Virus record (IMG/VR): IMGVR_UViG_3300021963_000602
Location: 1-25,276 of that record
DNA: 25,276 bases
Source: a virus
Reading direction: 5' to 3' (one strand)
Position numbers and translations under genes: made by a program. Under the pieces are notes generated by a model, which saw only the letters and a list, made by a program, of their open reading frames with translations, had not been told where the DNA came from and did not search any database. Below, in pieces: positions 8,272 through 25,276 of this stretch. Every line of letters begins with the position of its first letter. Within the stretch, counting starts at the first letter, position 1.

Positions 8272-8855
8272 CGAAATGCTGGTCCTGAAAGCCATGCCAC
8301 AAGACTTTGCCTACTACCTTGTGTTACAGGTGTTACTTGATGAAGTGTATAAGAAGGAAACACCGAAATAAGCCCCCGCTGTTTTCGTACGTTTACAGGA
8401 TTTCCTCCCGTTAAAACTTGAAGATTACCGCCTTCATACTGCGCTGGATCTGTTAACTGAAGTACCGCTGAAAGTTTTCTGCTTACGCTGCGCTTACCAC
8501 CATAGTCTTGATGCCAGCCGTACATACCATTCTCAGATTGGTCGTAATTTGTAAGCTGGAGTGCCTCACCAAAGCCTGTGAGGTCAAACCTATAAAACTG
8601 CGAGTTAAGAGATGAGATAACATGAGCTAATTTGTCAAATACCCAACGCGTTTCGTCAGTGCAGCCTATCCATGAAATATGAGAACGTCTAATTTTGGCT
8701 AAATGCTCTGCATCAGGATTGCCCCCGACTTGCGCTCTTTGGTCTGCCTTAATTGCTCGCTCTTGCAACCAATCAAGCTCTTTGTCGTTGAACGCACCTT
8801 CCCACCACACAAAAGGTTCTATTGGTTCTGCATAAGGAGTCAACATGTACTGCAT
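8268..8855 (-). CDS. PKHD-type 2OG-Fe(II) hydroxylase
   Basis: This 195-residue protein has the textbook layout of a PKHD-type (PiuC-like) hydroxylase. His115 and Asp117 lie in MYGWHQDYGG, followed by RKLSAVLQLTDPAQYEGGNL, then His172 in SYTLHQVTPV and Arg182 in QGSRQSLVAWLSGP. All metal and 2OG residues are intact, so it should be active. ATG 8855 has an AGGGA-like ribosome site and overlaps the upstream gene by 16 bases. Members of this family are frequent in aquatic phages but their substrates are not established. It sits in a run of four oxygenase-like genes. Confidence 0.92.
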   Translation of the reverse strand: MQYMLTPYAEPIEPFVWWEGAFNDKELDWLQERAIKADQRAQVGGNPDAEHLAKIRRSHISWIGCTDETRWVFDKLAHVISSLNSQFYRFDLTGFGEALQLTNYDQSENGMYGWHQDYGGKRSVSRKLSAVLQLTDPAQYEGGNLQVLTGGNPVNVRKQRGLISVFPSYTLHQVTPVTQGSRQSLVAWLSGPAFR

Positions 8856-9439
8856 TGTCTGTCCCTATGCGAAATAATAAAGTGAATACATCTTGTTGGA
8901 GACTGCGCGTTTCCATTGCTTAACTGATGCTGCATCCATGAATTGCTAAACAACACCGTTCCTGGAGCAACATTATTAAAGTGAATTGACCCTGTTGCAT
9001 TGCTTACTTCACCAGTATTCTCGTAGTCTAATTCTGACATTGCTTTATTTGAACGGGTGTCATAGTAGATTGGGTAAGCTCCATTTTCCGGCGTTTCTAA
9101 AAACATCCATCCACATATCTGACTGTTTTTATGCACATGAACATTTGTGCCCGCATTTTTTTGCAATTCTTGCGCCCACAAACCCTGAAAATAAAAATCA
9201 TATTTTGCAGTGATGTACCCTTGACCTCTTAAAATATCAACTGCGGAACACAAAAGATATTGCATCAAATTTTGCATTCTTATGTCAGAGCCAAGGTGCC
9301 CGGACTGAATAAAAGAAAATATTGCGTCCTGTCGAACTTTATCAAGCTCAGACATACAGACCGGCAAAATTTCTTCAATCAGGTCAGGGCGCTCATCTCG
9401 ATACACAATCGCCGGAAAATACGCAAACCCTTGCATCAT
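8840..9439 (-). CDS. Putative 2OG-Fe(II) oxygenase, TIGR02466-like
   Basis: This 199-residue product resembles the TIGR02466 family of putative 2OG-Fe(II) oxygenases. It has His101-x-His103 in NVHVHKNSQICGWMFLETPE, YYDTR near residue 125, VAPGTVLFSNSWMQHQLSNG with His171, and Arg183 in PTRCIHFIIS. The family typically shows HxH rather than HxD, so which residue supplies the acidic ligand is unclear. ATG 9439 overlaps the stop of the small coiled-coil gene (ATGATG). The N-terminal 80 residues are helical. It ends in RDRQCSTC. It is the first gene of the four-oxygenase run. Confidence 0.82.
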   Translation of the reverse strand: MMQGFAYFPAIVYRDERPDLIEEILPVCMSELDKVRQDAIFSFIQSGHLGSDIRMQNLMQYLLCSAVDILRGQGYITAKYDFYFQGLWAQELQKNAGTNVHVHKNSQICGWMFLETPENGAYPIYYDTRSNKAMSELDYENTGEVSNATGSIHFNNVAPGTVLFSNSWMQHQLSNGNAQSPTRCIHFIISHRDRQCSTC

Positions 9440-10427: not shown

Positions 10428-10886
10428 TTAAGCCGCCTTGTCTAAGTGCAAAAGCCCTGTCAGAGCTTCTAAAACGACTTCTGGCGCGACAAATTTACTG
10501 GGGTCATGCTCATAGCACTCCCACCACAAAAACTGATTCTGAGCGAGATTGGCTCGATCCTTAAGCAGGTTGATGTTCTCTGGGTGGCCAAAGATCTGCG
10601 GGTCCGATACCGACCAAAGCACGATGCCTGGCCTGCCCTCATCCCACCCTAAATGCTGCATGAAGCTATCGCACGCAATCCATGTCGTGCATTGCCTCAC
10701 TAACTGACGCAGCGCTTGAATCGGCAGGTTCTTGCGAAAGTCTGGCACGAGTTGCTGCTCACCCTCAACACCCACCTGAATAACCGGATTAGGCAAATGC
10801 GGGATCAGCGCTTCCCAGAACGGATAGTCCTTGGGATTGCGCTTACCGTTATTAAGCTTCTTAGCAAAGGGCGCTATCAAAATCAT
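10428..10886 (-). CDS. GT9 heptosyltransferase-like C-terminal domain, separate gene
   Basis: ATG 10886 overlaps the preceding TGA (ATGA) and gives 152 residues; a reading from 10928 would overlap the upstream coding end without its own signal. The sequence starts MILIAPFAKKLNNGKRNPKD and continues with YPFWEALIPHL, CDSFMQHLGW (72-81) and IFGHPENINLL (98-108). This resembles the nucleotide-sugar-binding half of family 9 (ADP-heptose:LPS heptosyltransferase-like) GT-B enzymes, with the D-SF-QH motif and the FGHP-N region. The N-terminal half is missing here, but a matching segment ends the upstream gene. It probably works with that product; substrate unknown. Confidence 0.75.
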   Translation of the reverse strand: MILIAPFAKKLNNGKRNPKDYPFWEALIPHLPNPVIQVGVEGEQQLVPDFRKNLPIQALRQLVRQCTTWIACDSFMQHLGWDEGRPGIVLWSVSDPQIFGHPENINLLKDRANLAQNQFLWWECYEHDPSKFVAPEVVLEALTGLLHLDKAA

Positions 10887-11851
10887 AGGTACATCTTCCT
10901 GTAAGCACCTTCCAAGCTTGTCTTCCACTTCCAGCGGTCCATCTTGGCATAGATGTTATACATTTCGATGTCGCCAAATAAGTCTCTGGCCTCAGCAATC
11001 GACCTGCAGGGAAGAATCTCAGGATAGCAGCCAAACACCAACGGGTTCTTAATCTCTGGCAAGACATGCGTAAACACAATGTGATCACCCATACCGTTGT
11101 TGAGAACCACAATCGTATGATCTTTGTGCGCTAGCATGTTGCGAAAAATTTGCTCATCATGCGCAAACATCTCTTGTTTATCTTCCATGCGAATACCGCC
11201 AGACGGCGCTTTAAGGTGCCAGGTTACTGCATTAGGCACCACTAATAAGTCATAGCCCTTTTGCTTTAAGCCAAAGCTGAAAAGCGTTTCCTCGCGGTGA
11301 GCTACCCGAGACAGGCCTAGGTTGTAGTCATAAATCCCTGCGCGGTACAGGAAGCTGCAGTGCAAGTGGTCTACATGCTTGACCTTCTTGATGCGCTGCC
11401 ATTGCGGATGTGGCTCGTGGTCAATCGCATCGATCTTGCCGGTAGGATTGGCTTCTTCAAAGTAATTGGGTGGCATAAGCACTGAGCCGCCCACACCGCC
11501 AATCATCGGGCCTGTATGCGCTAGCAAGACCTCAAGCACGTTTGGCTCAGGAATGGCGTCATCATCCACGCGCCACACCCAATCAAAGCCCATGCAGTTG
11601 GCCATTTGATGGTTGTGATGCTGGCCCTTCTTGCCGGCCCAAAGCCACTCCCAAGCAATCTGCTTGGCATCCATCATCCAATACAAGTTCTTGTATATCG
11701 GATCGCTACGCAGGTCTTGATTCTCGTCGTTATCATCAAAGATCACGATCTTGTCTGGCTTGCGGGTTTGGTTCATCACCGCCTGCAAAGCCAAAGGCAG
11801 CGTCGTATGTGACCGCCCCCTGGTAGAGACTGAGCACAAAACGCTAGGCAT
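10883..11851 (-). CDS. GT2-like glycosyltransferase with a GT9 N-terminal-like tail
   Basis: ATG 11851 overlaps the previous stop and gives 322 residues; the longer reading would use a TTG. Residues 1-240 are a GT-A fold, family 2-like: SVLCSVSTRGRSHTTLPLAL, IVIFDDND, the metal-binding RVDDDAIPEPN (Asp96-98), then REETLFSFGLKQKGYDLLVV and an NAVTWH acceptor-side motif. From about 244 the sequence changes to DHTIVVLNNGMGDHIVFTHV, which resembles the N-terminal Rossmann start of family 9 glycosyltransferases. The next gene supplies a matching C-terminal half through an ATGA overlap. It likely transfers one or two sugars to a fibre or glycan; donor and acceptor are unknown. Confidence 0.82.
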   Translation of the reverse strand: MPSVLCSVSTRGRSHTTLPLALQAVMNQTRKPDKIVIFDDNDENQDLRSDPIYKNLYWMMDAKQIAWEWLWAGKKGQHHNHQMANCMGFDWVWRVDDDAIPEPNVLEVLLAHTGPMIGGVGGSVLMPPNYFEEANPTGKIDAIDHEPHPQWQRIKKVKHVDHLHCSFLYRAGIYDYNLGLSRVAHREETLFSFGLKQKGYDLLVVPNAVTWHLKAPSGGIRMEDKQEMFAHDEQIFRNMLAHKDHTIVVLNNGMGDHIVFTHVLPEIKNPLVFGCYPEILPCRSIAEARDLFGDIEMYNIYAKMDRWKWKTSLEGAYRKMYL

Positions 11852-13133
11852 GCCAGCGTCCAATCAGCAAGTTGAGCCTGTTTTGATCGTCAATCGGTTT
11901 AGGCACGGCTGAGATGTTGCCTTGCTCGTCAATATAGTTGAACTCAAAGCCAGGGAAGTGCGACTCATTCAAGCCATGCAATTTGTGATGCGGACCCCAA
12001 AAGCCTACCGGCTCATTCATGGGTACGGTAAAGAGCAAGGTCTTGCAGTGCTGCTTGAGCTTTTGCAAGACTTCCAAGCCGTTATCAAGGTGCTCAATGA
12101 CCTCAAAGGCGATGATTGTGTCGTACTGCTGCAGGTCATACTTGTTAATGTCGGCATGCACAAACTGCGCCTTGGCACTCCAGCCCTGCTCCTTGGCCAC
12201 ATCCACAATGATTGGATCGTAATCAAGGCCTGTGTATTCCACACCTTCAGGCATGAACTGCACGCCATAACCGCTTGAGCAGCCAAGCTCAAACACACTC
12301 TTGCCCCTCACATGCTGCGCTGCCCACTGATACCGCGTCACTTCCCGCGGGAAGACCGGGTCGCCCTTCAGAAAAACAGCACGCTCCCAATAGTTTGATA
12401 AGCGCCAGCGATACCAGTCCGGGTTGAACTTCTTGGCAAGCTTGAGCGAGTTGCGCAGGAACACGTCGTTGTAATCAGGCACAAGCGACGTATCAAGCAT
12501 CGTGCCCTCGCCCTTGTGATAGATCGGAAACGCGCCCGTAAACTGGTTGCCGCTCCACTCCTTGGGCGAGCATTCATGCACCTCAAAACCTGCCATCTCA
12601 GCCTGAATGCAGAATTCGGTATCTTCACCGCCGCCAACGCCGTATTCGGTATTCAATAACCCAATCCGGTTAAATACACTACGCCTGATCATCACGCAAA
12701 AGAACACCGCAAAGTCACGGCCTGCAGGCTCTGATGGCCCCTTGATCACGCAGGAAATGCCGCACTTCTCGTGATGCGCAAATGGCTGGTTGAGCATGTC
12801 CATCCACTGGCTTTTATTCTGCGGCAACAGGACTGTGTCGTTGTTGAGCAGTACGATGCGATCTGTGCGCGTGGCGACAATCCCTGCATTGCATGCACCT
12901 GAATAGCCTAGCGGCTGATCATTCCAGACAACCTTGATGTGTTTATCAAAGCCAATGCTTGCAAAGCGAGTCGATAGTTCTTGCAGGTAAGCCTGTGTGC
13001 CATCTGTGCAGCCGTTGGCCGAAATGACCAACTCAACATCGGCCATGTCGGTGTACTTGAAGATAGACTCAAGACAGGGCTTGAGCAGATCCTCGCAATG
13101 ATTGTAGGTCGGAATAACAATGCTGTATTTCAT
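11844..13133 (-). CDS. GT2 glycosyltransferase / SAM methyltransferase fusion
   Basis: The 429-residue product has two domains. Residues 1-245 are a family 2 glycosyltransferase: YSIVIPTYNHCEDLLKPCLE, LVISANGCTDGT, the metal-site NND at 97-99 and GVGGGEDTEFCIQAEMAGF at 165-183. Residues 265-429 are a class I methyltransferase: SVFELGCSSGYG (SAM motif I, 279-290), YTGLDYDP, then IIAFEVIEHLDNGLEVLQKL and LLFTVPMNEP. The pairing suggests addition of a sugar that is then methylated, as in O-methylated surface glycans. It begins directly at the collagen-like fibre's stop (shared base), which suggests the fibre may be the acceptor. The acceptor is inference. Confidence 0.88.
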   Translation of the reverse strand: MKYSIVIPTYNHCEDLLKPCLESIFKYTDMADVELVISANGCTDGTQAYLQELSTRFASIGFDKHIKVVWNDQPLGYSGACNAGIVATRTDRIVLLNNDTVLLPQNKSQWMDMLNQPFAHHEKCGISCVIKGPSEPAGRDFAVFFCVMIRRSVFNRIGLLNTEYGVGGGEDTEFCIQAEMAGFEVHECSPKEWSGNQFTGAFPIYHKGEGTMLDTSLVPDYNDVFLRNSLKLAKKFNPDWYRWRLSNYWERAVFLKGDPVFPREVTRYQWAAQHVRGKSVFELGCSSGYGVQFMPEGVEYTGLDYDPIIVDVAKEQGWSAKAQFVHADINKYDLQQYDTIIAFEVIEHLDNGLEVLQKLKQHCKTLLFTVPMNEPVGFWGPHHKLHGLNESHFPGFEFNYIDEQGNISAVPKPIDDQNRLNLLIGRWHA

Positions 13134-15139
13134 TAGAACGTCCCACCATCAACCCCGCCAGTAATTGCATTAGTGCTGCCGTTAACCGACAAGCCTGCAT
13201 CCACTAGCACTGACTGACTGCCTGTTGTTGAATTTGCTGCAAACAAAATAAAACCTGCGGTTGCACTTGCTGTTGTGGTGACATTTGTTGGCGCAACACC
13301 TGAAAACCCGCTAATGCCTGATGCACCGCTAAAGCCAGATACGCCTGAGCCGCTGAAGCCTGAGATACCAGAAAAACCTGAAATACCAGAAAATCCTGAG
13401 AAACCTGAAATACCAGAAAATCCTGAGAAACCTGAAATACCAGAGAACCCGGATCGCCCGCTAAATCCAGATATACCTGAATCACCTGAGAATCCTGAGC
13501 GACCAGAAAATCCAGATATACCTGAGAACCCTGAGATGCCAGAAAAACCTGATATGCCTGAGAATCCAGATATTCCAGAAAACCCAGAAATACCAGAGAA
13601 ACCTGAAATGCCAGAGAAACCTGAAAAACCAGAAATGCCAGATCCAGAAAATCCAGACGTTCCTGAAAAGCCTGATATGCCGCTAAAACCAGAGATACCG
13701 CTAAACCCAGATATTCCACTAAATCCTGATCTTCCGCTGAATCCTGAGAATCCAGAAAACCCTGATGTACCGCTTTGAGCTACGCCATCAAGGCCTGAAA
13801 ATCCCGAAAAACCACTTTGCCCAGAAAAGCCGCTAATGCCACTAAAACCAGAGATACCGCTAAAGCCACTAATACCCGAAAATCCAGAAATACCGGAATA
13901 TCCACTGGTCCCAGAAAATCCTGAAATACCTGATCCTGAGTAACCAGAAATTCCCGATCCTGAAAATCCTGATAATCCAGAAAAACCACTGATACCAGAA
14001 AAACCACTGATACCAGAAAAACCTGAAATACCTGAGAAACCTGATATTCCAGAAAATCCTGAGATACCGCTAAATCCCGAAAACCCTGAAATGCCAGATC
14101 CAGAAAATCCAGAAATACCGGAGCCTGAATACCCCGAGATACCAGAAAATCCGCTAAAGCCTGATAAACCTGAGTAGCCCGAAATGCCGCTGAATCCAGA
14201 GATGCCGGAGTATCCCGAGGTGCCTGAATAGCCGCTGAATCCGCTAAAGCCCGAAACGCCTGAGCCTGAAAACCCTGAGATTCCACTGTAGCCAGAGATA
14301 CCAGAAAAGCCTGAAATTCCTGAAAACCCTGAGGTTCCGCTAAATCCTGATACTCCTGATCCAGAAAAACCTGAAAATCCTGAAAAGCCAGAAATTCCTG
14401 AGTAACCTGAAATTCCACTGTAACCCGACAATCCTGTCCATGCGCCAGCTACAACCCCTTCGTAAATCCCCAGATCCGTGTTGTATCGGATCATTCCATT
14501 CTGCGGCGAAGAACGCTGCACAGTTGTACCCGCAGGAATTTTTACTGATCCCGTGCCTGGCAATATTGGGTTATCCGAAATGCCTATCGTAGGGTCTGCG
14601 CCATCACCCGTGCCATTTGCGACATCAATTTCATTGGCCGTGCCTTGAAGTATTACCACCCCAATTGCATTACCTGACGTGCGTGAAATCAAGCCTGAAC
14701 CTGACGACAATGCTAAATCTAAAACAAGGCCTGATAGCAATACTGTAGGATTCCCCGCTATCCCATCGCCATCAGTAACGCTTAAACCCGTCGTTCCGGC
14801 TTGAATAGAGCGGTTTGTAAGCGTTGTGGCGTTAGTCTTGACCTGAATGCCCGCTGCTGAATTTACGAGGCTTGCAGGCGCTCCTGACAAGGCTAGCGCC
14901 ACTGTTGAGCCAGGACCGTTGTCTGTGAGTGTTAAACCTGATCCGGTTGTTGCAAGTTGCCTCGAATCCGTAAGTAAGCCTTCACTGGTTGCCGTGATAA
15001 AGCTGTAATTTGTCGCTGGACTCGCCGCAATTGCAGCCACCGTTGTCTGTACGGTGCCGCCATCTTGAACGATGGGAACAAGCTCTGCGCCTGTTAAGGC
15101 ACCTGCTGCCGGTAACTGCGTAATCGTCTGATTAGCCAT
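13133..15139 (-). CDS. Collagen-like tail fibre with Gly-X-Ser triplets
   Basis: This 668-residue protein has an N-terminal module common in phage fibres (MANQTITQLPAAGALTGAEL, then VPIVQDGGTVQTTVAAIA) and a beta-rich neck to about residue 234. Residues about 235-613 are repeats of Gly-Phe/Ile/Tyr-Ser triplets such as GFSGISGFSGYSG. They are broken at several places by a GS dipeptide (SGSGVSG, SGSGISG) and once by LDGVAQSG. A short C-terminal domain follows (FILFAANSTTGSQSVLVDAG), ending in GGVDGGTF. The triplets fit a collagen-like trimer but contain no proline. Serine fills the third position almost throughout. Glycosyltransferase genes follow directly. It is most likely a long fibre stalk. 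Confidence 0.88.
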   Translation of the reverse strand: MANQTITQLPAAGALTGAELVPIVQDGGTVQTTVAAIAASPATNYSFITATSEGLLTDSRQLATTGSGLTLTDNGPGSTVALALSGAPASLVNSAAGIQVKTNATTLTNRSIQAGTTGLSVTDGDGIAGNPTVLLSGLVLDLALSSGSGLISRTSGNAIGVVILQGTANEIDVANGTGDGADPTIGISDNPILPGTGSVKIPAGTTVQRSSPQNGMIRYNTDLGIYEGVVAGAWTGLSGYSGISGYSGISGFSGFSGFSGSGVSGFSGTSGFSGISGFSGISGYSGISGFSGSGVSGFSGFSGYSGTSGYSGISGFSGISGYSGLSGFSGFSGISGYSGSGISGFSGSGISGFSGFSGISGFSGISGFSGISGFSGISGFSGISGFSGLSGFSGSGISGYSGSGISGFSGTSGYSGISGFSGISGFSGISGFSGISGFSGQSGFSGFSGLDGVAQSGTSGFSGFSGFSGRSGFSGISGFSGISGFSGISGFSGTSGFSGSGISGFSGFSGISGFSGISGFSGISGFSGISGFSGISGFSGISGFSGRSGFSGDSGISGFSGRSGFSGISGFSGFSGISGFSGFSGISGFSGISGFSGSGVSGFSGASGISGFSGVAPTNVTTTASATAGFILFAANSTTGSQSVLVDAGLSVNGSTNAITGGVDGGTF
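13300..14440 (-). repeat. Coding tandem repeat, Gly-X-Ser collagen-like tract
   Basis: The DNA here consists of short imperfect repeats, 9 or 18 bases long, encoding Gly-Phe-Ser and Gly-Ile/Tyr-Ser. Third codon positions vary widely (GGA/GGT/GGC/GGG, AGC/AGT/TCA/TCT/TCC), so the repeat is maintained at protein level rather than by recent DNA duplication alone. Edges are approximate. Confidence 0.9.
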
Positions 15140-16955: not shown

Positions 16956-17355
16956 AACTTTTTACCATTTCTAACGTAACGGCGTAGAAGTCTCCATTTA
17001 CTGCATCAAGCGTACTGAATAAAACGTCACCCGTTTTGCCACTTCCTGCATTATTTGTTAGACCGCCAAATGATGAAAAATCAATCGTGTATTGACTATT
17101 CGGTGGAACAGACCAACACAAAATGTCTGTTGTAGCATCCCAATAAATTTCCACTTCTAATGCATGTGTGGACGCATGAATTTTTTGTATTGCAACACCA
17201 TTGCACGTTTTGCCTGATGCGCTTGGATTAAGGGCTGAGACATCAACTTTGAGAACTTTACTTTCATTGCCTGAACCGTCGCATTGAAACGTAAACTTCA
17301 TAATTGCCATGCGCTCGCCATCTAGGAGCGTTTGACTTCCAACCGTGTTGGCCAT
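16945..17355 (-). CDS. Conserved beta-rich virion protein (136 aa)
   Basis: The product begins MANTVGSQTLLDGERMAIMK and has alternating hydrophobic strands: FTFQCDGSGNESKVLKVDVS, HALEVEIYWDATTDILCWSV, YTIDFSSFGGLTNNAGSGKT and FYAVTLEMVKSYAS. Such short beta-sandwich proteins occur in the head region of aquatic phages and are probably structural. It has its own AGAGG ribosome site and lies just downstream of a UUCG hairpin. No catalytic motif is visible. Confidence 0.7.
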   Translation of the reverse strand: MANTVGSQTLLDGERMAIMKFTFQCDGSGNESKVLKVDVSALNPSASGKTCNGVAIQKIHASTHALEVEIYWDATTDILCWSVPPNSQYTIDFSSFGGLTNNAGSGKTGDVLFSTLDAVNGDFYAVTLEMVKSYAS

Positions 17356-17375
17356 GATCGACCTCTTTAAAGAAT

Positions 17376-17395
17376 GCAGGGGCCGAAGCCCCCGC
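17376..17395 (-). terminator. UUCG stem-loop downstream of the basic Met-rich gene
   Basis: In the transcript sense the sequence forms GCGGGGGC-TTCG-GCCCCTGC, an eight-pair stem (one G-U pair) closed by the very stable C(UUCG)G tetraloop. It is followed by ATTCTTTAAAG, which has only a weak U-tract, so it may be a partial terminator or an RNA-processing/stability element. It lies in the 43-base gap just after the stop of the gene at 17399-18568. Confidence 0.6.
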
Positions 17396-17398
17396 TAT

Positions 17399-18568
17399 TT
17401 AACACGCGCCGCCGGCTCGCTTCTTTGCTTCTGGTGGCGATACAGTTACAGACTTTTGCGTTTCTGTCACTGAACCTTGGCCACGCAACTTGTCTCGAAG
17501 CTTGTTGCCTAGCTCTCTAAAGATGCTTACAGGATTCATGGCATCTTCAAGTTCACGACTCGCTTTTGCAGCGGTCTCATACGGATCTTTAACAGGCTTG
17601 GATACATCAACTTTACCACCGTCTTCGTATCGTACCTTGCCGCCCTTCTTGAAGGTTCCTGACTGAATCGTGTTAGCAACGGCTTTTGATGCTGGTTTCT
17701 TGGGGTAGGCTACGGGTTTGCCTGAATCAACAAGCCCCCCCGTAGCGAAGTGCTTTTTTGCAGCACCGCCTTTCTTGTACCCACCTGCATTGGCCTCTTT
17801 GACTTCGCCCGTTGTGGTGTTTGATACGCCCGGCTTGGATGTAGACACATTACCTTCTACGCCCATGCCCTTAACACCGCCACCCATGGCATACATCATG
17901 CCGCCGCCCATCATCTTTTTGGCCTTGCCGCCCTTCTTAAAGCCTCCAGCATTGCCCATACGCACGCCGCCAGTACCGTGAGCCGTATCCCTCTTGGCCT
18001 CGTCTACCATCGTCGTTGCAGGCGTTCCGCGACGGGTTTCGCTTGGAATTGCACCACCCGTTGCATAGCCGGCAACTTGACCTTCTTTAACTTCTCCGGT
18101 CTTGCCTTTGACCATATCAGGCGTTGCGGTATGCATCTTTGTGGTTGCATACGATCCTACGGTGCCGCCCATTTTCAAGCCTTTATGACCTTTGCTGGCA
18201 GGCTTGCCTTCATGAGATTTAAGCTCTTTCTCAACTTTGCCAAGACGCTTCATTTCCATTTGATGAACGCCCTTGGTCTCGCCACCTTCCTTCATCATTG
18301 GGCGATTCATCATCGGACGAGCCATCATGGCTTTGCGGCGCATGGCCATCGAGGGACGTGCAGGTGCGCGGCCAGGCAAAACACCTTCGCCCATCTGCAT
18401 GCGGGTTGGTGCAGGTGCTGCTGACAATCCTGTCATCACACCACCATCCATCATTTTGTGTCCATGCTTTTTGTCATGCTTCATGGACACATGACCACCC
18501 TTTTTCAGCTTTAACTCCACTGAAGGCTCGGTGGTGTACATCTTTATCATCGGCTTAAACTGACCCAT
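17399..18568 (-). CDS. Strongly basic Met/Lys/Gly-rich protein, unknown
   Basis: This 389-residue protein is low-complexity and very basic. It has about 31 Met, mostly in the first 230 residues (AMRRKAMMARPMMNRPMMKE; KKMMGGGMMYAMGGG). It also has repeated units of the type TGEVKE-x-AGGYKKGG: GEVKEGQVAGYATGG near 160, NAGGFKKGGKAKK near 205 and GEVKEANAGGYKKGGAAKK near 255. A C-terminal helical part (ETAAKASRELEDAMNPVSIF, then LGNKLRDKLRGQG) follows. The only cysteine is the last residue. Similar KKGG/MMNGG proteins occur in aquatic phages without a function. It stands in the head block, flanked by two UUCG hairpins; DNA condensation inside the head is inference. Confidence 0.75.
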   Translation of the reverse strand: MGQFKPMIKMYTTEPSVELKLKKGGHVSMKHDKKHGHKMMDGGVMTGLSAAPAPTRMQMGEGVLPGRAPARPSMAMRRKAMMARPMMNRPMMKEGGETKGVHQMEMKRLGKVEKELKSHEGKPASKGHKGLKMGGTVGSYATTKMHTATPDMVKGKTGEVKEGQVAGYATGGAIPSETRRGTPATTMVDEAKRDTAHGTGGVRMGNAGGFKKGGKAKKMMGGGMMYAMGGGVKGMGVEGNVSTSKPGVSNTTTGEVKEANAGGYKKGGAAKKHFATGGLVDSGKPVAYPKKPASKAVANTIQSGTFKKGGKVRYEDGGKVDVSKPVKDPYETAAKASRELEDAMNPVSIFRELGNKLRDKLRGQGSVTETQKSVTVSPPEAKKRAGGAC

Positions 18569-18583
18569 TTCTGTTCCTTTCAG

Positions 18584-18605
18584 ATCCGACCCCGAAGGGC
18601 CGGAT
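18584..18605 (-). terminator. UUCG stem-loop downstream of the beta-helix gene
   Basis: In the transcript sense ATCCGGCCC-TTCG-GGGTCGGAT forms a nine-pair stem (one G-U pair) with a C(UUCG)G tetraloop, six bases after the stop of the upstream gene. No U-tract follows (CTGAAAGG instead). It may attenuate transcription or protect the 3' end of the abundant head-gene message rather than end transcription fully. Confidence 0.58.
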
Positions 18606-18610
18606 ACTCA

Positions 18611-19639
18611 TTAGGTTGGGTTAACAGCGATGCCGCTTGTTGCAGCAACCACCGAAGCGCCATCAACGTAGATCTGACCACGCGTGGTCGCGTCTGTGCC
18701 GAATTCAGTGATGCCAACCATGGTGCTATCTTTGATCAACAACAAACCCCCTGCCGAAGCGGGAAGGGTTGCCAATCCGTTCATCGTGGTTGATGTGGAT
18801 TGGACGTTGTTGATAAACGTACACTGCTGGAACAACTGGAAACGATCAATTGATGATGCAGCCGATGCGATGATGCCCAAAGGCGTTGCCGCAGAGGTCT
18901 GGAACGGGAACGTGCAGCCAATAAAGCTGTTTCGAGCAGTGCCCGAAGCAAACTCTACTGTTGCATTCGCTGCAGAACGCGCTACCGTATCAAGACCCAA
19001 CACGCAGTCTGTAAACGTGTTTTCTTGGCTTGTGATCTTCAGCGTGCGAGCAGCAGAGCCACCTGCAGATGCTGCGTCCGCCAAGCCTTGAATGTTTACA
19101 TTTTGGTAGGCGTTACGACCACCTGCCTCAAGCACACCAACCATCGTCGCAGAACCCGTGCTAAACCCAACAAAAATTTCGATGTTGGCAAACAAACAGC
19201 CAGCACCTGTGACGTTAATGAAGGTATTTGCCCCAAAAGTTGATGCCGTATATGTACCCGTGGGCGGTGCAATACGGGCACGCTGACCAATACGCGTTGG
19301 AGCCGTCATGCCAATCAAGTGCGTGGCATTCTTGTTCCAGTTCAGCGTACCGCTTGTTGCCGATGAATTAATCGTCTGAGCAAGAGCAAGCGACAGGCGA
19401 GCCGTACCGCTGGCTGCGCCGTTGCTCATCAGAACGATTACATCGTTGTTGCCTGATACTGCGCGGTTAATTGCTGCGTAAAGCGTTGCTAGAGGATAGT
19501 CGGCAGAGCCTTCGTTTCCATCAGCGCCGTTGACCGGATCTACAAAGTAGTAGTTTCCAGAGAACGGAATGCCGCCGATGTTGCCGAGGACAGGGACTCC
19601 AAAGCTCGTGATCCCATTAGGGAAGTTTGTTAGAGCCAT
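18611..19639 (-). CDS. Probable beta-helix virion protein
   Basis: The 342-residue product starts MALTNFPNGITSFGVPVLGN, an N-terminus I recognise from structural genes near the capsid gene of aquatic phages. It continues with YYFVDPVNGADGNEGSADYP and LATLYAAINRAVSGNNDVIV, the usual entry of pectate lyase-like right-handed beta-helices. Repeated short strands with Asn/Thr/Phe ladders follow (NTFTDCVLGLD, NSFIGCTFPFQ, FQQCTFINN). No lyase catalytic residues can be pointed out, so a decoration or head-fibre role is more likely than an enzyme. AAAGGAAAG upstream supports the ATG. A UUCG hairpin follows the stop. Confidence 0.75.
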   Translation of the reverse strand: MALTNFPNGITSFGVPVLGNIGGIPFSGNYYFVDPVNGADGNEGSADYPLATLYAAINRAVSGNNDVIVLMSNGAASGTARLSLALAQTINSSATSGTLNWNKNATHLIGMTAPTRIGQRARIAPPTGTYTASTFGANTFINVTGAGCLFANIEIFVGFSTGSATMVGVLEAGGRNAYQNVNIQGLADAASAGGSAARTLKITSQENTFTDCVLGLDTVARSAANATVEFASGTARNSFIGCTFPFQTSAATPLGIIASAASSIDRFQLFQQCTFINNVQSTSTTMNGLATLPASAGGLLLIKDSTMVGITEFGTDATTRGQIYVDGASVVAATSGIAVNPT

Positions 19640-19649
19640 TTCTTTCCTT

Positions 19650-20324
19650 TCATGTTTGAAATGACGAATTCAAATAATCAAAAGCGGCTTTAAGAATGTC
19701 CTTGTCATCACGAAACAATCCAAGACCACGATTACATTTAGTGCAGAGCAAACCTCTTGCCTTGCCTGTTTTGTGATCATGATCTACTGGCATTGCAATC
19801 ACCTTATTCCGTATGATAGCGGTTTCTGGCTGCTTGCAAATAGCGCAGACATTATTTTGCTTGGCAAGAGTTTCTTGATACCACTCATAAGTAACGCCAT
19901 AGTTTCTTCGTAAATCTTGATCCAAGTAATATTCAGGATTTGCGGCTCTCGCTTTGCGATACCACTCTCGCATATATTCTTTGTAATCCTCTGACGAAGC
20001 TCTACGCTCTTTCCAATAAAAATTGTCTTTGCCCCAAGGCTTTGTTGGATCTGCACGCCATGCAATTGAACCTTCTGGCTTTTCAGGAACATCTTTGACG
20101 AACTGCCAAAAATCTTCTCTCCAAGATTCTTGCATGTCCAACCGATGGTATCGCCGCAACCCACACCATGACTTATACGCCCAGTGCTTTTCTCGCGCTC
20201 CCCAATCATTTGGCCTCGTCTCACCAACATCTCCGTGACGCTGAACCCGCATGTAATGCTTTCGGCACAAGCCCTTTGCAATTGATGGCTGGGAACAGTT
20301 GTGTACATGACATTTCTCTGGCAT
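19650..20324 (-). CDS. Free-standing homing endonuclease, endonuclease VII-type
   Basis: This 224-residue nuclease has an N-terminal zinc finger-like part (C5, C10, C20 and H23, in CHVHNCSQPSIAKGLCRKHY). The C-terminal recombination endonuclease VII domain has Cys160 and Cys163 (NVCAICKQPE), Asp181-His182-Asp183-His184 (MPVDHDHKTGKARG), Cys194, Cys197 and Asn198 (LLCTKCNRGLG). These match the zinc ligands and active-site D-H-x-H and N of T4 endonuclease VII. A middle region (EYMREWYRKARAANPEYYLD) resembles the DNA-contacting part of phage homing endonucleases. Placement between the capsid gene and the next structural gene, away from replication genes, favours a mobile homing endonuclease over a Holliday-junction resolvase. 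Confidence 0.86.
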   Translation of the reverse strand: MPEKCHVHNCSQPSIAKGLCRKHYMRVQRHGDVGETRPNDWGAREKHWAYKSWCGLRRYHRLDMQESWREDFWQFVKDVPEKPEGSIAWRADPTKPWGKDNFYWKERRASSEDYKEYMREWYRKARAANPEYYLDQDLRRNYGVTYEWYQETLAKQNNVCAICKQPETAIIRNKVIAMPVDHDHKTGKARGLLCTKCNRGLGLFRDDKDILKAAFDYLNSSFQT

Positions 20325-20364
20325 CGGTAATCTCTTTGATTTCCATCTTAGATTTTACCGATGC
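20321..20364 (-). promoter_or_regulatory. Inverted repeat enclosing the homing endonuclease start
   Basis: In the transcript sense the sequence is GCATCGGTAA, a 24-base loop, then TTACCGATGC: a perfect ten-pair stem. The endonuclease ATG (20324-20322) lies in the 3' arm and its weak AAAGAG ribosome site lies at the loop edge. Folding of a long read-through transcript from the capsid gene would hide the start codon, as described for hairpins that limit translation of some T4 homing endonucleases. The pairing is seen; the control role is inferred. Confidence 0.6.
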
Positions 20365-20388
20365 TCGCTTCATTTTACAATACCTGTG

Positions 20389-21306
20389 TCAAATCCCAGG
20401 CGTGCCGTACATCGCCCTTGGATCTGTAAATCCAACGTCATAACGCTCAGTTGCTTTGTACCGCATGGTGTCGGTCTCAAAGTCACCTTCCATCGTCTTT
20501 TCGAGACGGCGGCGCATCAGAAGCTTCATGCCTTCAGGCGCGTCGGTCTGCACCCACCATGCCGTTGCCGAGGTCAAACGCGACAAAACTGCAGCACCTT
20601 CGTCAAGAAGACCGATGGACTTAACAGGGTTGATGTCGTTGTTTGCCTGACCTGCACGGAGCACTGACTTCAGCAGAACCTCAGCCTGGAAGATGTTGCC
20701 AGGAGCCACAACCAACTGACGTGGAACCAAGCGAATCTTCTTACCGTTGTTGTCCACGGCCTGACGGATCTGGATGAGCATTTGCTCAAGCGATGTCTGA
20801 CTGAGAACAGCAGCATTGGTCAACAGGTTGCTGAACGTACCGTTAACGATGGGGTGCGAAGCACTGTTAAGCGCTACACCGTCGCCACCAGCATACTGAC
20901 CACCCGTAAAGGCGTTGTTCAGTACGTTGGCGCACAGCGTTTCTTTGGTTTCTACCAAGGACTGTGCCAGGTGACGGGCATAAACCGAGCCGATGCGGAT
21001 GTGGTCGCCATCCTCAACAAGCACCTTGGTCAGTGCAAAGGCCAGGCCATACACTGCGTATACATAGCGCTTGAGGAAGAGTACACCACCTTGCTGATAC
21101 GTTACGGGGCTACCGTCCGGAAGGAGCGGAGCCAAACCGAAACCGTACAGAACCGGCTCTTCGTGGTAGTTACGGGGAATGCCGTCTTGCTCGCGGAACA
21201 CGCGGCTCCACTCGTCGGCACGTTGATCATAGACACCATCGAAGCACTCGTTGAGGATAGGCTCAACAATGCTCCGAAAGTCCGTACTGCGCATTGGGGC
21301 TGCCAT
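20389..21306 (-). CDS. Major capsid protein, HK97-fold
   Basis: The 305-residue product forms the icosahedral head shell. The N-terminal arm reads MRSTDFRSIVEPILNECFDG. A P-domain-like region includes LFLKRYVYAVYGLAFALTKV and the long helix HIRIGSVYARHLAQSLVETK. FTGGQYAGGDGVALNSASHP is a surface segment typical of coat proteins of this lineage. LEQMLIQIRQAVDNNGKKIR and LVPRQLVVAPGNIFQAEVLL make up the A-domain. Near the end, WWVQTDAPEGMKLLMRRRLE and DTMRYKATERYDVGFTDPRA resemble Mu gpT and related HK97-fold coats. A perfect AAGGAGG site precedes the ATG, as expected for the most abundant product. The scaffold-like and co-chaperonin genes lie upstream. Confidence 0.9.
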   Translation of the reverse strand: MAAPMRSTDFRSIVEPILNECFDGVYDQRADEWSRVFREQDGIPRNYHEEPVLYGFGLAPLLPDGSPVTYQQGGVLFLKRYVYAVYGLAFALTKVLVEDGDHIRIGSVYARHLAQSLVETKETLCANVLNNAFTGGQYAGGDGVALNSASHPIVNGTFSNLLTNAAVLSQTSLEQMLIQIRQAVDNNGKKIRLVPRQLVVAPGNIFQAEVLLKSVLRAGQANNDINPVKSIGLLDEGAAVLSRLTSATAWWVQTDAPEGMKLLMRRRLEKTMEGDFETDTMRYKATERYDVGFTDPRAMYGTPGI

Positions 21307-21314
21307 GATTTACC

Positions 21315-21321
21315 CCTCCTT
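21315..21321 (-). promoter_or_regulatory. Strong Shine-Dalgarno of the major capsid gene
   Basis: AAGGAGG stands eight bases before the capsid ATG. Its AA is the end of the TAA stop codon of the preceding gene, so ribosomes that finish that gene can restart here. This full-length site fits the need for very high capsid output. Confidence 0.8.
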
Positions 21322-21925
21322 ATACGATAGTGGCTGGGTAAATGGTAGCTGCACCAGTACCAATACCAAGGAATTGCGACTCAGAGATCTGTACACGCAC
21401 GATGGTGTAAGTATCTCCCCATGCGTTGCCTGGATAAGGGGCAACTTCAAGAACACGCAACTGCTTTGTACTGTTTGCGCCTGCAGCCGTTGTTCCCATC
21501 GTGCATTGCGACAATCCAGTTGTGGTCGAGCCGTTATCATTGTTGCTGATATCGTACTGCTGACCTACTGCTGTATAAGGAATTGAACCTTCCGATTGAA
21601 TTTCATAAACAATCAGCGGATCAACCCAAATGTAAGCAATTGCACTGCCCTGTTGAAAAGCTGTGTTTGCAGGGTAATAGTTGGAAACGCGACGACGACC
21701 CGTGGTATCAGTCCACTCAAAACCATCGAAGACGCCGTAAATAGCGGCTCCTGCAGCTTTGATGATGTATCCCGTACCAGGATCAAGAGTGACGGCTTGG
21801 CCTTTGAAAATGTTTGAGGCGTAGCCAGTCGCATAAGCAAATGGGTTTGGGAATGCAATCGCACGATCCAGCCCTGAGGGATGGAATACAGGTCGCAAGC
21901 CAAACGGAGCACTTGTAGCTGACAT
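21320..21925 (-). CDS. Probable head decoration protein
   Basis: This 201-residue protein begins MSATSAPFGLRPVFHPSGLD, an opening I know from a widespread head-region protein of aquatic phages. It has PFAYATGYASNIFKGQAVTL, GTGYIIKAAGAAIYGVFDGF and AIAYIWVDPLIVYEIQSEGS. These are beta-rich segments with a D-P-x-x-x-Y-E-I-Q core, as in barrel-shaped capsid cement proteins. GGAG lies six bases before the ATG. It directly precedes the major capsid gene, which supports a decoration or capsid-stabilising role; no experimental family is claimed. Confidence 0.75.
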   Translation of the reverse strand: MSATSAPFGLRPVFHPSGLDRAIAFPNPFAYATGYASNIFKGQAVTLDPGTGYIIKAAGAAIYGVFDGFEWTDTTGRRRVSNYYPANTAFQQGSAIAYIWVDPLIVYEIQSEGSIPYTAVGQQYDISNNDNGSTTTGLSQCTMGTTAAGANSTKQLRVLEVAPYPGNAWGDTYTIVRVQISESQFLGIGTGAATIYPATIV

Positions 21926-21937
21926 AACTTTCTCCGA

Positions 21938-22480
21938 TTAACCCTCAAATATGGGGGCTTGATTGATGGATTTGTTTGCTCGATCAAAGCCCTCGCCTTC
22001 CGTCTTCAGGAGCCTATGCCCTGAACTGTCCGCTCCCTGTAGCTCTTCCATACGCTCCATAATCGCTTGGGTTGCTTCCATCGGTTTTTGATAATGGAAA
22101 TGCGTCATGACTCGTTGGTAAAGATCCATAGGTAACTTAAACAGCAGCATCTCGTTACACGAAATGTGGCCCACATGCTCGCCAGCTTTTACGCGGTAAT
22201 TGTCAAACCCAGGCAACTCATCTGCAAGCACAGGCGTATACCCAAGTCGAATCCGCTTATCAATGGTGTCGTAGCTATTGGTGGTGGAAAGCCAGCACAA
22301 ATGGTATCCCGGAATATCCGGCACCTTTGGCAGGGCGCTTTGCGTCCACTCGTCACTCCACATTTTGTCAATGTCCTGTGTACTAGCGAACATTTCTTCA
22401 GCAGGAAGGCGCGATTGATCTTCGCTTGCGCGAGTATGACGGCCACCCACTGACAATGATTTTTTAAGGCGTGATTCCAT
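21938..22480 (-). CDS. Conserved head-region protein of unknown function (180 aa)
   Basis: The product contains PDIPGYHLCWLSTTNSYDTI, DKRIRLGYTPVLADELPGFD, VGHISCNEMLLFKLPMDLYQ and a helical C-terminus (QAIMERMEELQGADSSGHRL). The HLCWLST-N--DTI-KR--LGY-PV block is a pattern I associate with phage genomes having this head-gene order, where it is unannotated. It sits between the scaffold-like and decoration-like genes with AGAGGG upstream of its ATG, so a role in head assembly is likely but not shown. Confidence 0.72.
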   Translation of the reverse strand: MESRLKKSLSVGGRHTRASEDQSRLPAEEMFASTQDIDKMWSDEWTQSALPKVPDIPGYHLCWLSTTNSYDTIDKRIRLGYTPVLADELPGFDNYRVKAGEHVGHISCNEMLLFKLPMDLYQRVMTHFHYQKPMEATQAIMERMEELQGADSSGHRLLKTEGEGFDRANKSINQAPIFEG

Positions 22481-22483
22481 GAC

Positions 22484-23422
22484 TTACCCTCTTCTCTGTG
22501 ATTTCTGCTGCAGTGCATAACGCATAATCATGCTGGCTCGTTTTTTGGGGTCATCCCAAAATCCGGCTTCCTTCATCGCTTTTACCTGTTCGGCACTTAG
22601 CAAAAAGTCTTTATGCCCACCAGCGGACGATGCATTTTCACGGCCTGAGCTAGTCACAGCACTCCTGGGTCTACGTCGAGGAGAATCATCCTCATAACCG
22701 GCATTATACTTATGCGGAATGTATTCTTGCAAGCGTCTGTCCATTTCCTGCCAATAATCCTTGCTGGCAGGATTCCAGCCCTCAGAATGTAATTGCTCGT
22801 CAATCTGCTTTGCAATCTTGCTATCCATGTCTTTACGCTCTGGATCAAACCAAGGATTACGTCGCATCCAATCCGCTAAATTACGTTGAACGGCTGCATC
22901 AGGAACATTTTTCTGTTGCGGTGCGCTGACACGTTGTCTAAAGTTTTTGAGTTGTTCAAGCTTTTCCCGCTCATCCAACATCATTTCATTGGCTTGCGCT
23001 AGGGCATCACCATCTTGCGCCTGCGTTGCTTCTGCCATTTTCATCTTGGCATATTTCAAACGCAACTCTGCATCCTGCACGGCCTTATCAACCTGCGCTA
23101 AATCATTAGCATGGGTGCGCTGCTCAACAACCGCTAAACGCTCCATTAACTCCTGATTTTGTCTCTGCAATAATTGCAGGCGCTCATCTTTTTCCGCTTG
23201 GGTTTTGCGGATTAAATCTTTCTTCGCACGCCGACGCTCGCGCCGGGCAACCCGTAAGGAATCAAGTTCATCAGCGCTAGGGGGGTCATCATCACCAGGA
23301 ACGTCGCCGCCTTCAGCCTTGCCATCTTCGTCATCTTCAATTTGAATCGAATCAGGTAAAAAGGCAGTGACCGTGCCATCCGGCTCTTCCTTGATGGGAA
23401 TGTCTTCATTTTCGTTACTCAT
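22484..23422 (-). CDS. Scaffolding-like protein
   Basis: The 312-residue product has an acidic N-terminus (residues 1-55, e.g. IQIEDDEDGKAEGGDVPGDD), a long charged coiled-coil from about 56 to 165 (DLIRKTQAEKDERLQLLQRQ, then AELRLKYAKMKMAEATQAQD) and a basic C-terminus (DDPKKRASMIMRYALQQKSQ). This layout, acidic-helical-basic, is typical of capsid scaffolds, which guide coat assembly and then leave the head. A second folded part near 185-235 (LADWMRRNPWFDPERKDMDS) is conserved in related phage proteins. Position two genes before the capsid gene agrees. No protease domain is visible, so exit without cleavage is likely. Confidence 0.8.
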   Translation of the reverse strand: MSNENEDIPIKEEPDGTVTAFLPDSIQIEDDEDGKAEGGDVPGDDDPPSADELDSLRVARRERRRAKKDLIRKTQAEKDERLQLLQRQNQELMERLAVVEQRTHANDLAQVDKAVQDAELRLKYAKMKMAEATQAQDGDALAQANEMMLDEREKLEQLKNFRQRVSAPQQKNVPDAAVQRNLADWMRRNPWFDPERKDMDSKIAKQIDEQLHSEGWNPASKDYWQEMDRRLQEYIPHKYNAGYEDDSPRRRPRSAVTSSGRENASSAGGHKDFLLSAEQVKAMKEAGFWDDPKKRASMIMRYALQQKSQRRG

Positions 23423-23862
23423 AGAAATGCCCTCGTTTCTAATGGGTTAGTCGTAATCCGCGCAATAACCTCATGATCATTGCAAATCATAAATAACGCT
23501 GGATCTTCACTGGCATCCTCGCCGGGAACTTTAACTTCCCAACGATCACCACCCCACTTGGGCACGCGGATAAAGTCACCCACCTTGCACCATGAGCCTT
23601 CAGGCCATGATTTCATCGAGTCACGGTGACGAAACGCAAGACTGCCAATCTCAATAACTTTGGCTACCTGCGTATTCCACTTTTCCGTTTCCTTCGTTTC
23701 CTCAATCAACATAATTCCGCCCTTGGTGGTTTTCTTCTTGGACCGACGGATCTGCACTAAAATGCGGCCACCAAGAGGACTTGCACCAGGATCTACGCTC
23801 GGAAACGCCCAAGCCATCTCAGCGTCGTTAAACGCTTCTGGTTCATTCACTTTCATCTTCAT
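23419..23862 (-). CDS. GroES-like co-chaperonin (viral Cpn10)
   Basis: The product of up to 147 residues has a GroES fold pattern: GGRILVQIRRSKKKTTKGGI (residues 31-50), MLIEETKETEKWNTQVAKVI, EIG, then CKVGDFIRVPKWGGDRWEVK and ALFMICNDHEVIARI. The mobile loop keeps GGIML, the motif that binds the GroEL rim. So it could replace host GroES, as gp31 of T4 does, to fold the capsid protein. It is longer than bacterial GroES (about 97 residues), with an extra N-terminal segment and a loop at 78-95. ATG 23862 overlaps the upstream gene; ATG 23856 has better spacing to AAGGG. The gene lies just before the scaffold and capsid genes. Confidence 0.85.
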   Translation of the reverse strand: MKMKVNEPEAFNDAEMAWAFPSVDPGASPLGGRILVQIRRSKKKTTKGGIMLIEETKETEKWNTQVAKVIEIGSLAFRHRDSMKSWPEGSWCKVGDFIRVPKWGGDRWEVKVPGEDASEDPALFMICNDHEVIARITTNPLETRAFL

Positions 23863-24028
23863 CCCTTAAAATTGAATCAATCATCTGCAGCGTTTGTTCA
23901 AACGCCAGATACATCCCAACCGTGCGTTGATACGCTTCCCATGTCGCAGCATTACCTGCTGCCAAGGACTGGCTTATTTCAGCCTGGCGTATCTTGATGT
24001 CACGAATCAGGTCGGCTATTGGGTTCAT
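23843..24028 (-). CDS. Small helical phage protein, unknown (61 aa)
   Basis: The product starts MNPIADLIRDIKIRQAEISQ and continues SLAAGNAATWEAYQRTVGMY, with a strongly acidic end (SILRDEDESE). It is predicted to be all-helical. The pattern LAAG-A-TWEAYQR--G is familiar from small genes after phage portal genes, but no function is known to me. The ATG forms an ATGA junction with the upstream 52-residue gene and its end overlaps the co-chaperonin gene by about 20 bases. Confidence 0.72.
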   Translation of the reverse strand: MNPIADLIRDIKIRQAEISQSLAAGNAATWEAYQRTVGMYLAFEQTLQMIDSILRDEDESE

Positions 24029-24183
24029 TTTTTCTTTGCCGGCAATGCGCCTCCCTTGGTTGGTTGCTTGGGTTGCGTTCCCTTGGACTGCAGGCTTGTG
24101 CCGTCAAGGTTGGCTCCCATAGCGATACGCTTGTGATACGGAACCGTTTCAAGGTCTTTGATGTCTTTAGATTGCTGGGCCAC
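24025..24183 (-). CDS. Small basic protein after the portal gene (52 aa)
   Basis: A GTG start at 24183 gives MAQQSKDIKDLETVPYHKRI, then AMGANLDGTSLQSKGTQPKQ and a Pro/Lys-rich end (GGALPAKKK). AGGAG sits six bases before the GTG, and the gene overlaps the portal stop by 17 bases and the next gene by an ATGA junction, so it fills the gap exactly. I do not recognise a family. Its basic, flexible tail suggests binding to DNA or to an acidic partner such as the scaffold, which is only a guess. Confidence 0.65.
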   Translation of the reverse strand: MAQQSKDIKDLETVPYHKRIAMGANLDGTSLQSKGTQPKQPTKGGALPAKKK

Positions 24184-25276
24184 GATTAACTCCTAAGTTG
24201 CGTTGTGCTTCGTTCTGAAGCTTGATTGCAGTTTCAAACTGCTCGGCCTGCAAGCGCTCATCTTGATGCGTGAGACGCGCAGTTTCTATCCGCTCCTTAG
24301 TGAGGTTGTTTGTAGCGTTAAGCGCCACATCCAACTGGTCACGCTCAGAAGCGCGTTGCTGGTCTGCTTGCATGCGAGCCATATCAATTTGGCCGCTTTG
24401 TTGCAACTCAGCACCCTTAAGTTGTAGTTCAGCCTGATCCCGCTGGGCACGACGTTGAGTCTCAGCCAAGCTGGTTTCACGAAGTACCTGTGCCTCAGGC
24501 GGCAGTTGCGGTTGCGGCGTAAGCTTTTGCATAGCTTGCAAGAGTTCCTGCAGCCGCGGTACAACCTGCTTAAACGCTGCTTCCGTGTCTTTCATGACGT
24601 GCTGCGAGGCAAGCGCAAAGGTTTTGTCAATCTCTGCAGTCAACATCTTGTTCTCGTAGTCGCTTTCAGCCATTGGCTCACCGCGAGCCTTGTTGATATA
24701 GCCATTCATGCGACCTAAGTACCATAAGACCATGTGTTGCTTGAGGTGCTCTAACACCCTTGGCAGATAAAACGATGCCATGATCGGGTTTTGGCCAAAC
24801 GCAGGGTTTAAAGCAAAGTCTAAATGCGCCTGTACATGCGCTAGCTGGTCTTGGTGCGGATAAGCATAAGCATTCTGACCCAAAGCCATGGCTACGTTCT
24901 CATCCGAGGCTGGCCGCTCCTCTGGCGCAGGCGTACCCTTGAGCAATTCATTGATGCCAGGGATTTTTAGCTGCTTTAAGAGGCGCTCTTCCACTGCGCG
25001 GCGGTCATAAAGGTCAGGCGACTTATCAGAACGCGCCATAACCGCTTGAATCTGCGCCATGCGCTGCGTTTCAGAGAAGATATTGGGGTCTGACACGGGT
25101 ACAACGTCGCCCATGCGCTCAAAATCACCCGGCTTGACCTCCAAATCAAGCGTTTCCTCACCGCGGCGCATATCTTCGATGTACCAACGGTTCAAACGCT
25201 GCAAAATCCGCAATACACGACCTTGTGATTTGTGTAATCGGGCATGAATGGCCGAAAAAACGGCTGCACCCTGCTC
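24167..25276 (-). CDS. Portal protein, C-terminal part
   Basis: The frame is open to the right window edge (about 369 codons visible); an apparent TTG start at 25213 is not real because the coding continues upstream. The visible part begins EQGAAVFSAIHARLHKSQGR. It contains RILQRLNRWYIEDM and the GDVVPVSDPNIFSETQRMAQ helix region, then PHQDQLAHVQAHLDFALNPA and SFYLPRVLEHLKQHMVLWYL. A long Gln/Arg/Glu-rich coiled-coil tail follows (AETQRRAQRDQAELQLKGAE to the end). This matches the C-terminal half of podovirus-type portals, in which the terminal helices form a barrel in the head. The portal ring is the packaging channel and connects head and tail. Confidence 0.85.
   Translation of the reverse strand, partial: EQGAAVFSAIHARLHKSQGRVLRILQRLNRWYIEDMRRGEETLDLEVKPGDFERMGDVVPVSDPNIFSETQRMAQIQAVMARSDKSPDLYDRRAVEERLLKQLKIPGINELLKGTPAPEERPASDENVAMALGQNAYAYPHQDQLAHVQAHLDFALNPAFGQNPIMASFYLPRVLEHLKQHMVLWYLGRMNGYINKARGEPMAESDYENKMLTAEIDKTFALASQHVMKDTEAAFKQVVPRLQELLQAMQKLTPQPQLPPEAQVLRETSLAETQRRAQRDQAELQLKGAELQQSGQIDMARMQADQQRASERDQLDVALNATNNLTKERIETARLTHQDERLQAEQFETAIKLQNEAQRNLGVNRGPAI
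24190..24194 (-). promoter_or_regulatory. Shine-Dalgarno AGGAG that fixes a GTG start
   Basis: AGGAG stands six bases before GTG 24183 and lies inside the portal gene's last codons. It supports translation of the 52-residue frame from GTG and no other start. Confidence 0.65.

Follow-up and report, generated by a model that had tools for sequence, protein, structure and literature searches.

The window, by which we mean the whole stretch of 25,276 nt analysed here (IMG/VR virus record IMGVR_UViG_3300021963_000602, positions 1 to 25,276), carries on its minus strand a major capsid protein gene, followed after 64 nt by a nuclease gene and then by a further gene. The nuclease gene, together with a hairpin over its start codon and a set of promoter-like sites, forms a cassette whose features are collected in Table 1. 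Comparison of the part from 17000 to 25276 with named phages gave no near DNA relatives.

Table 1. Features of the nuclease cassette and its neighbours in the window (positions are those of the window)
Feature	Position	Strand	Basis or remark
Major capsid protein gene, directly upstream of the nuclease	20389..21306	-	PF25209; annotated major capsid protein in MW202545
Whole cassette, missing from the colinear relative L003	19647..20395	-	749 nt replacing 37 nt
Predicted -35-like box TTGTAA (embedded sigma70-type promoter)	20375..20380	-	
Hairpin 5′ arm, RNA GCAUCGGUAA	20355..20364	-	Sequence and predicted fold
-10-like TAAAAT (predicted)	20352..20357	-	Overlaps the 5′ arm
Expected nuclease-mRNA start, about 20344, inside the loop	20342..20347	-	Inferred from the -10 position
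Apical part, 24 nt, two further 3-bp helices (predicted)	20331..20354	-	Fold
SD-like AAAGAG, weak	20332..20337	-	Partly paired in an inner helix
Hairpin 3′ arm, RNA UUACCGAUGC, contains the nuclease start codon	20321..20330	-	Sequence
Nuclease ATG	20322..20324	-	Inside the 3′ arm; M1 and P2 invariant in 20 aligned proteins
Nuclease ORF, 224 aa, C-terminal Endo VII-type (DHHRN) motif, Cys/His-rich N-terminus	19650..20324	-	Pfam, PHROGs and PDB matches
Next gene, downstream of the cassette	18611..19639	-	

The nuclease matches PF02945 (Endonuclease_7) with an E value of 2.8e-22 over residues 137-219 of 224, it is named “endonuclease VII” in PHROGs, where its N-terminal 40 residues also match “HNH endonuclease” families, and a PDB profile search leads from it to Hpy99I and T4 Endo VII. 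Nine residues (C160, C163, D181, H182, H184, R190, C194, C197 and N198) are invariant across 20 aligned nucleases, and the pattern CxxC, DHxH, R, CxxCN, in which R or K was permitted, was found in 77 of the 79 nucleases whose leaders are counted below. According to the account of the DHHRN family of F-CphI in PMC6083498, C-terminal motifs mostly belong to an endonuclease clade and N-terminal motifs mostly to a resolvase clade, and under this rule the motif of the window nuclease sits in the endonuclease-clade position. Judged by these residues and by the position of the motif, the window nuclease is a member of the DHHRN (Endo VII motif) family and is, for the same reasons, likely a homing endonuclease. 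The sequence-only reading had already called it one; to that name can now be added the motif, the domain order and a pattern of presence and absence, homing itself being presumed from these.

This pattern is seen in the relative L003, which is colinear with the window at approximately 79-80% nucleotide identity on both sides of the cassette, the match stopping at 20396 and restarting at 19646. The segment inserted relative to L003 comprises the promoter-like sites, the hairpin and the nuclease ORF, and the gene is thus present or absent at a fixed site in colinear relatives, as is characteristic of homing endonucleases, with L003 holding the empty site. Among the best 80 of 596 matches of the capsid search, the nuclease was present in 2 of the 74 capsid relatives with sufficient downstream sequence. 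In the opposite direction, a capsid homologue lies directly upstream in 83 of the 87 distinct nuclease leaders collected, and the identity of these capsids to the queries goes down to about 33%. In nuclease-free relatives (L001-L080) the capsid stop is often followed at once by a GC-rich stem, with an open SD behind it. The Caulobacter phage GB2A (L272:3915-5593) has another annotated homing endonuclease, with DUF723/CapR-type domains, directly behind the same capsid gene, which suggests an insertion hot spot. Its leader folds strongly (z -4.4), and on account of its domains we do not regard it as a nuclease of the same kind.

The sequence-only reading had pointed to GCATCGGTAA and TTACCGATGC as the arms of a perfect ten-pair stem, 24 nt apart and with the nuclease ATG in the 3′ arm, and all of this matches the sequence exactly, the ATG being read on the coding (minus) strand. 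Ten pairs alone are unremarkable, since inverted repeats of ten perfect pairs and a loop length of 3-40 nt are found twice in the window, where the mean of 100 Markov-1 simulated sequences was 1.21, and we therefore dropped the rarity of the stem as evidence, about 1.2 such stems being expected per window. What is unusual about the hairpin is the fold of its region, its placement on the start codon and its compensatory conservation in relatives. On the coding strand a 91-nt region folds at -23.6 kcal/mol, whereas its shuffles have a mean of -12.1 (z -4.39, equalled by 0 of 200 shuffles), and in the predicted structure the two 3-bp helices of the loop stand between small internal loops. The SD of close relatives is GGAG, as opposed to AAAGAG in the window. 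Rfam returned no family match for the hairpin at gathering score.

The start regions of related nucleases were collected from several searches, taking the best 80 of 596 loci from the capsid search and elsewhere 30 of 30, the best 80 of 541, 2 of 2 and the best 80 of 578; most leader loci came from nuclease searches and few from the capsid search, and the scan of genome contigs contributed L191 as a useful locus besides L192. Many contigs were fetched repeatedly, so that 181 nuclease loci with a start gave 87 distinct leaders, of which 79 were counted. Four leaders without a capsid match (L225, L251, L252 and L254) were dropped, as were four with the predicted start at most 7 nt from the capsid stop (L190, L224, L240 and L270). 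In the latter the predicted nuclease start lies on the capsid stop or almost abuts it and there is no hairpin leader, and these genes may use translational coupling instead. As controls we took 120 capsid starts and 66 next-gene starts in nuclease-free relatives.

Among the counted leaders, the median z of the fold from -60 to +12 is -5.51, and z lies below -3 in 63 of 79 leaders compared with 3 of 120 capsid and 4 of 66 next-gene starts. The SD region is predicted to be largely hidden, with a median unpaired probability of 0.19 in the 79 leaders against 0.46 and 0.51 in the two sets of control starts (both p ~2e-14), and when the RNA is cut at -28 the medians rise to 0.55 for the SD and 0.69 for the ATG. 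An SD was detected in 77 of the 79 leaders and is at least 75% paired in 62; by prediction and by covariation, the 3′ arm of a read-through RNA would keep the SD and/or AUG paired. The position of the stem follows the start codon: in 63 hairpins its 3′ end varies relative to the ATG with a standard deviation of only 3.2 nt, and its 5′ start relative to the capsid stop with one of 14.6 nt, hence the stem is anchored to the ATG and not to the capsid stop. There are also exceptions, as 11 of the 79 leaders have no fold at z<-2; in L177, L181, L182, L183 and L186 there is only short pairing across the ATG, and there is little or no fold in L173, L209, L262 and L268.

Compensatory changes in relatives, which the sequence-only reading had proposed as a check, were found. 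Twenty-nine close relatives and more distant leaders were inspected by eye, and in alignment A4, which holds 26 leaders, both sides changed in 11 of the 19 pairs of a named helix. The covariation score of this helix is 0.273 against 0.144 with shuffled partners, none of 500 shuffles reaching as high, and 74.9% of its cells are paired against 66.0% when shuffled. Because kin can exceed shuffles without any structure, both the wider set of leaders and a slide control matter here, and sliding the partners by 1-3 columns lowered the score to 0.111 or less. L191 was excluded from A4 because it had been misaligned in A3, and a second subgroup alignment (A5) was excluded as too gapped to count. RNAalifold recovered only six pairs on A4, probably as a result of unequal loop lengths and of inner helices misplaced by MAFFT, and the named structure was counted in its place. 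Sequence comparison shows the hairpin to be genuine and to be maintained as a structure while its sequence changes.

A second element, missed by the first reading, is a predicted sigma70-type promoter embedded in the leader. Promoters were scored with sigma70 weights, spacers of 15-19 nt and a threshold score of at least 6. The window site, TTGTAA-17-TAAAAT, has the second-best minus-strand score in the whole 25 kb; it matches at 9 of 12 positions only, and a simple scan counted 4 sites of this kind in the region, where shuffles gave 1.6. Of the 79 leaders, 60 reach the threshold, as do 5 of the 120 capsid starts and 2 of the 66 next-gene starts, and 49 of 79 leaders exceed their own dinucleotide shuffles at p<=0.05. 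Of the ten spacer lengths compared, 17 nt is clearly preferred, with 43 leaders scoring at least 6 against 8-24 for the others, and the sense strand exceeds the antisense strand (60 versus 24 of 79; p 4e-10), the antisense count standing above the other controls because an inverted repeat creates promoter-like sites on both strands. On the negative side, 19 of 79 leaders have no promoter at score 6, including the close relatives L091, L098, L099, L101, L102 and L131, of which L098, L099, L101 and L102 lack the -35. The leader sequences are related and the counts are therefore not independent; in 39 clusters at 70% protein identity, at least half of the members have the promoter in 29, the strong fold in 27 and both in 23.

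The placement of these sites, as read from the sequences, is mostly such that a transcript starting from them would skip the 5′ arm. The -10 lies mostly 32-41 nt upstream of the ATG, and in 45 of 59 promoter-bearing leaders the expected transcript would lose 90% or more of the stem pairs and still begin upstream of -11, where 25.6 would be expected under uniform placement. In the window the start would fall inside the loop, therefore the 5′ arm would be omitted from the nuclease's own mRNA; a start there removes 16 of 16 stem pairs, and the RNA from 20344 is predicted to fold at -4.0 kcal/mol compared with -21.0 for the longer RNA. The plainest example is that of L179, L187 and L195, in each of which a perfect TTGACA-17-TATAAT is present and the arm in its spacer co-varies with the 3′ arm, the pairs being CCTTCTC/GAGAAGG, CCCTCTC/GAGAGGG and CTATCTC/GAGATAG, respectively. 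We infer from these sites that the promoter works.

On this evidence we consider it likely that the hairpin is a translation switch of a mobile nuclease cassette that carries its own, arm-skipping sigma70-type promoter. On a long read-through mRNA from the capsid gene, the 5′ arm would pair with the nuclease's start codon and SD region and would therefore block ribosomes from starting. From the cassette's own promoter, whose spacer and -10 box coincide with the 5′ arm, the RNA would start in the loop without this arm, leaving SD and AUG exposed. With the read-through mRNA silent and the short mRNA open, the dose of nuclease would thus depend on its own promoter and be shielded from transcription of the capsid gene. 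The first reading had suggested that the stem keeps the nuclease low on capsid-derived transcripts, and the predicted hiding of the start region across relatives supports this; with the embedded promoter, “kept low” would become silence on the read-through message and translation from the nuclease's own transcript. A broader reading would be that of a portable, self-insulating homing cassette behind the capsid gene of many diverged phages, in which the 5′ arm of the hairpin is at the same time promoter spacer and -10, and promoter and riboregulator are combined within approximately 60 nt. As the gene read through is of a late type and the promoter of a host type, its timing may be the reverse of that in T4, i.e., open early and silent late. 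We hold this broader reading only tentatively, at slightly less than even chance. If the switch is real, it shows how a selfish gene can live beside one of the most highly expressed genes of a phage without being over-expressed, and with arms that covary in a natural series, simple reporters would suffice to test the model.

Alternatively, the main role of the stem could be in transcription, as a terminator or attenuator at which the capsid mRNA stops ahead of the nuclease. At least six consecutive T are found in the 20 nt before the ATG in seven leaders (L095, L096, L100, L134, L174, L175 and L211), and the stem after the capsid stop of nuclease-free relatives would fit such a role, GGGGGCTYCGGC being present at some place in 56 of the loci L001-L080 (the best 80 of 596). 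However, the T-run is absent from the other 72 of 79 leaders, the position of the stem follows the ATG rather than the capsid stop, and the window does not have a GC-rich stem followed by a T-run, its stem lacking the T-run and a scan of 19600-21400 showing no minus-strand terminator. Termination as the main role is therefore unlikely. A still less probable explanation is that the stem serves the capsid mRNA, in protection or processing of its 3′ end, and hides the start codon as a side effect. Nuclease-free relatives too have a stem behind the capsid stop, so a stem there may benefit the capsid mRNA, but the SD of their next gene is more open (the median of 0.51 given above), whereas the nuclease stem covers SD and ATG and shifts with the ATG.

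The first reading had itself offered a protein-binding operator as its alternative, and an inverted repeat of DNA could be bound, e.g., by the Cys/His-rich N-terminal region of the nuclease so as to repress the embedded promoter. The repeat does overlap the predicted -10, and I-TevI is reported to autorepress its late promoter through an operator located there (PMC2988022). Yet the arm sequences diverge widely among relatives while the nuclease N-terminus is conserved, stem cells hold 33 G-U against 6 A-C (in the core 29 to 5, compared with 39 to 19 with shuffled partners), and the coding strand out-folds its complement in 62 of 79 leaders, and beyond its own shuffles in 68, where a DNA palindrome predicts no strand preference; at capsid starts this bias is absent (43 of 120). 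Because of the G-U excess and the preference for folding on the coding strand, the operator is disfavoured and as improbable as protection of the 3′ end, and we retain the translation switch, in which the hairpin presumably represses as RNA.

Some other elements of the window and its relatives are recorded here. A conserved element, TCAAACTTTTCAAGGAG, occurs in 18 loci (including L066, L079, L093 and L098); in a subset of phages it stands ahead of the gene that follows the capsid or the nuclease, and it is possibly a phage-specific promoter or leader. The segments 13133-15139 (-) and 7086-9439 (-) hold a 668-aa protein with GFSG-type repeats (Pfam Collagen, E 1.3e-48), located a few genes from a row of four small proteins that match 2OG-Fe(II) oxygenases, one weakly and three above the cut-off; these are candidate prolyl hydroxylase-like enzymes in the vicinity of a collagen-like phage protein. 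Within the phage structural region, 10883-13133 (-) encodes two glycosyltransferase-like proteins (one above the cut-off, one weak), one of them fused to a methyltransferase domain.

That hairpins block translation of some T4 homing endonucleases, as the sequence-only reading had noted, is described for I-TevI and others in a review of T4 mobile elements (PMC2988022). I-TevI has a hairpin that hides the RBS on read-through RNA and a promoter that skips the 5′ arm, and similar arrangements are given for I-TevII, I-TevIII, segB and Aeh1 mobE (PMC2988022). The intron enzymes I-TevI, I-TevII and I-TevIII thus share with our case both the hidden RBS and the arm-skipping promoter, but they are GIY-YIG (I-TevI, I-TevII) or HNH (I-TevIII) enzymes, in contrast to the free-standing nuclease with an Endo VII motif. 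The promoter of I-TevI is a T4 late promoter, as opposed to the sigma70-like one seen here, and the late promoter box TATAAATA was found in none of the 79 leaders at up to 100 nt from the ATG; because of this absence, the switch resembles the T4 cases in its presumed working but is not classed among them. Closer in layout are Aeh1 mobE and T4 segB, which are likewise free-standing and combine an RBS-hiding hairpin with a similar promoter arrangement (PMC2988022, PMC3014915). They differ in family (HNH and GIY-YIG, respectively), in their neighbours (nrdA and tRNA genes) and in belonging to T4-type phages; the phages that carry the nuclease leaders did not turn up among T4 relatives.

The start regions of T4 e (lysozyme), soc and gene 49 (Endo VII) are likewise held in an RNA helix, and gene e has late promoters located where the helix's 5′ strand is encoded, as set out in a second review (PMC3014915). 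These are, however, ordinary phage genes, e being silent early and open late, whereas read-through in our case comes from the capsid gene, which would be late. F-CphI of cyanophage S-PM2 is also a homing endonuclease with a C-terminal Endo VII motif of the DHHRN type (PMC6083498), and it shares 52.6% identity over 44% of the relative at L168. It lies behind psbA, and the stem in its leader (L273) stands well upstream, with no hairpin that hides the SD, thus we rejected it as a further case of this hairpin. In S-PM2 an antisense RNA is annotated across the 3′ end of psbA and the F-CphI start, which offers a different way to act where an Endo VII-type homing gene begins.

In T4 the capsid gene is gene 23. 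The T4 gene segD likewise lies beside the major capsid gene, being listed between genes 23 and 24 (PMC2988022 Table 1), and differs in encoding a GIY-YIG enzyme; the review considers its transcript level vanishingly low (PMC2988022). A survey of phage homing genes notes that such genes occur near capsid genes, and a word search of its text gave no mention of hairpins or promoters (PMC10448857). Among the open-licence full texts searched, we found no paper on a hairpin and promoter arrangement for Endo VII-type nucleases behind capsid genes. By analogy with the T4 cases the logic of the switch would be the same, and the nuclease family, the neighbouring gene and the type of promoter are different. 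A design known from a few T4-type genes would now be present in dozens of diverged leaders outside that group, and, if true, this would represent a convergent control of selfish genes.
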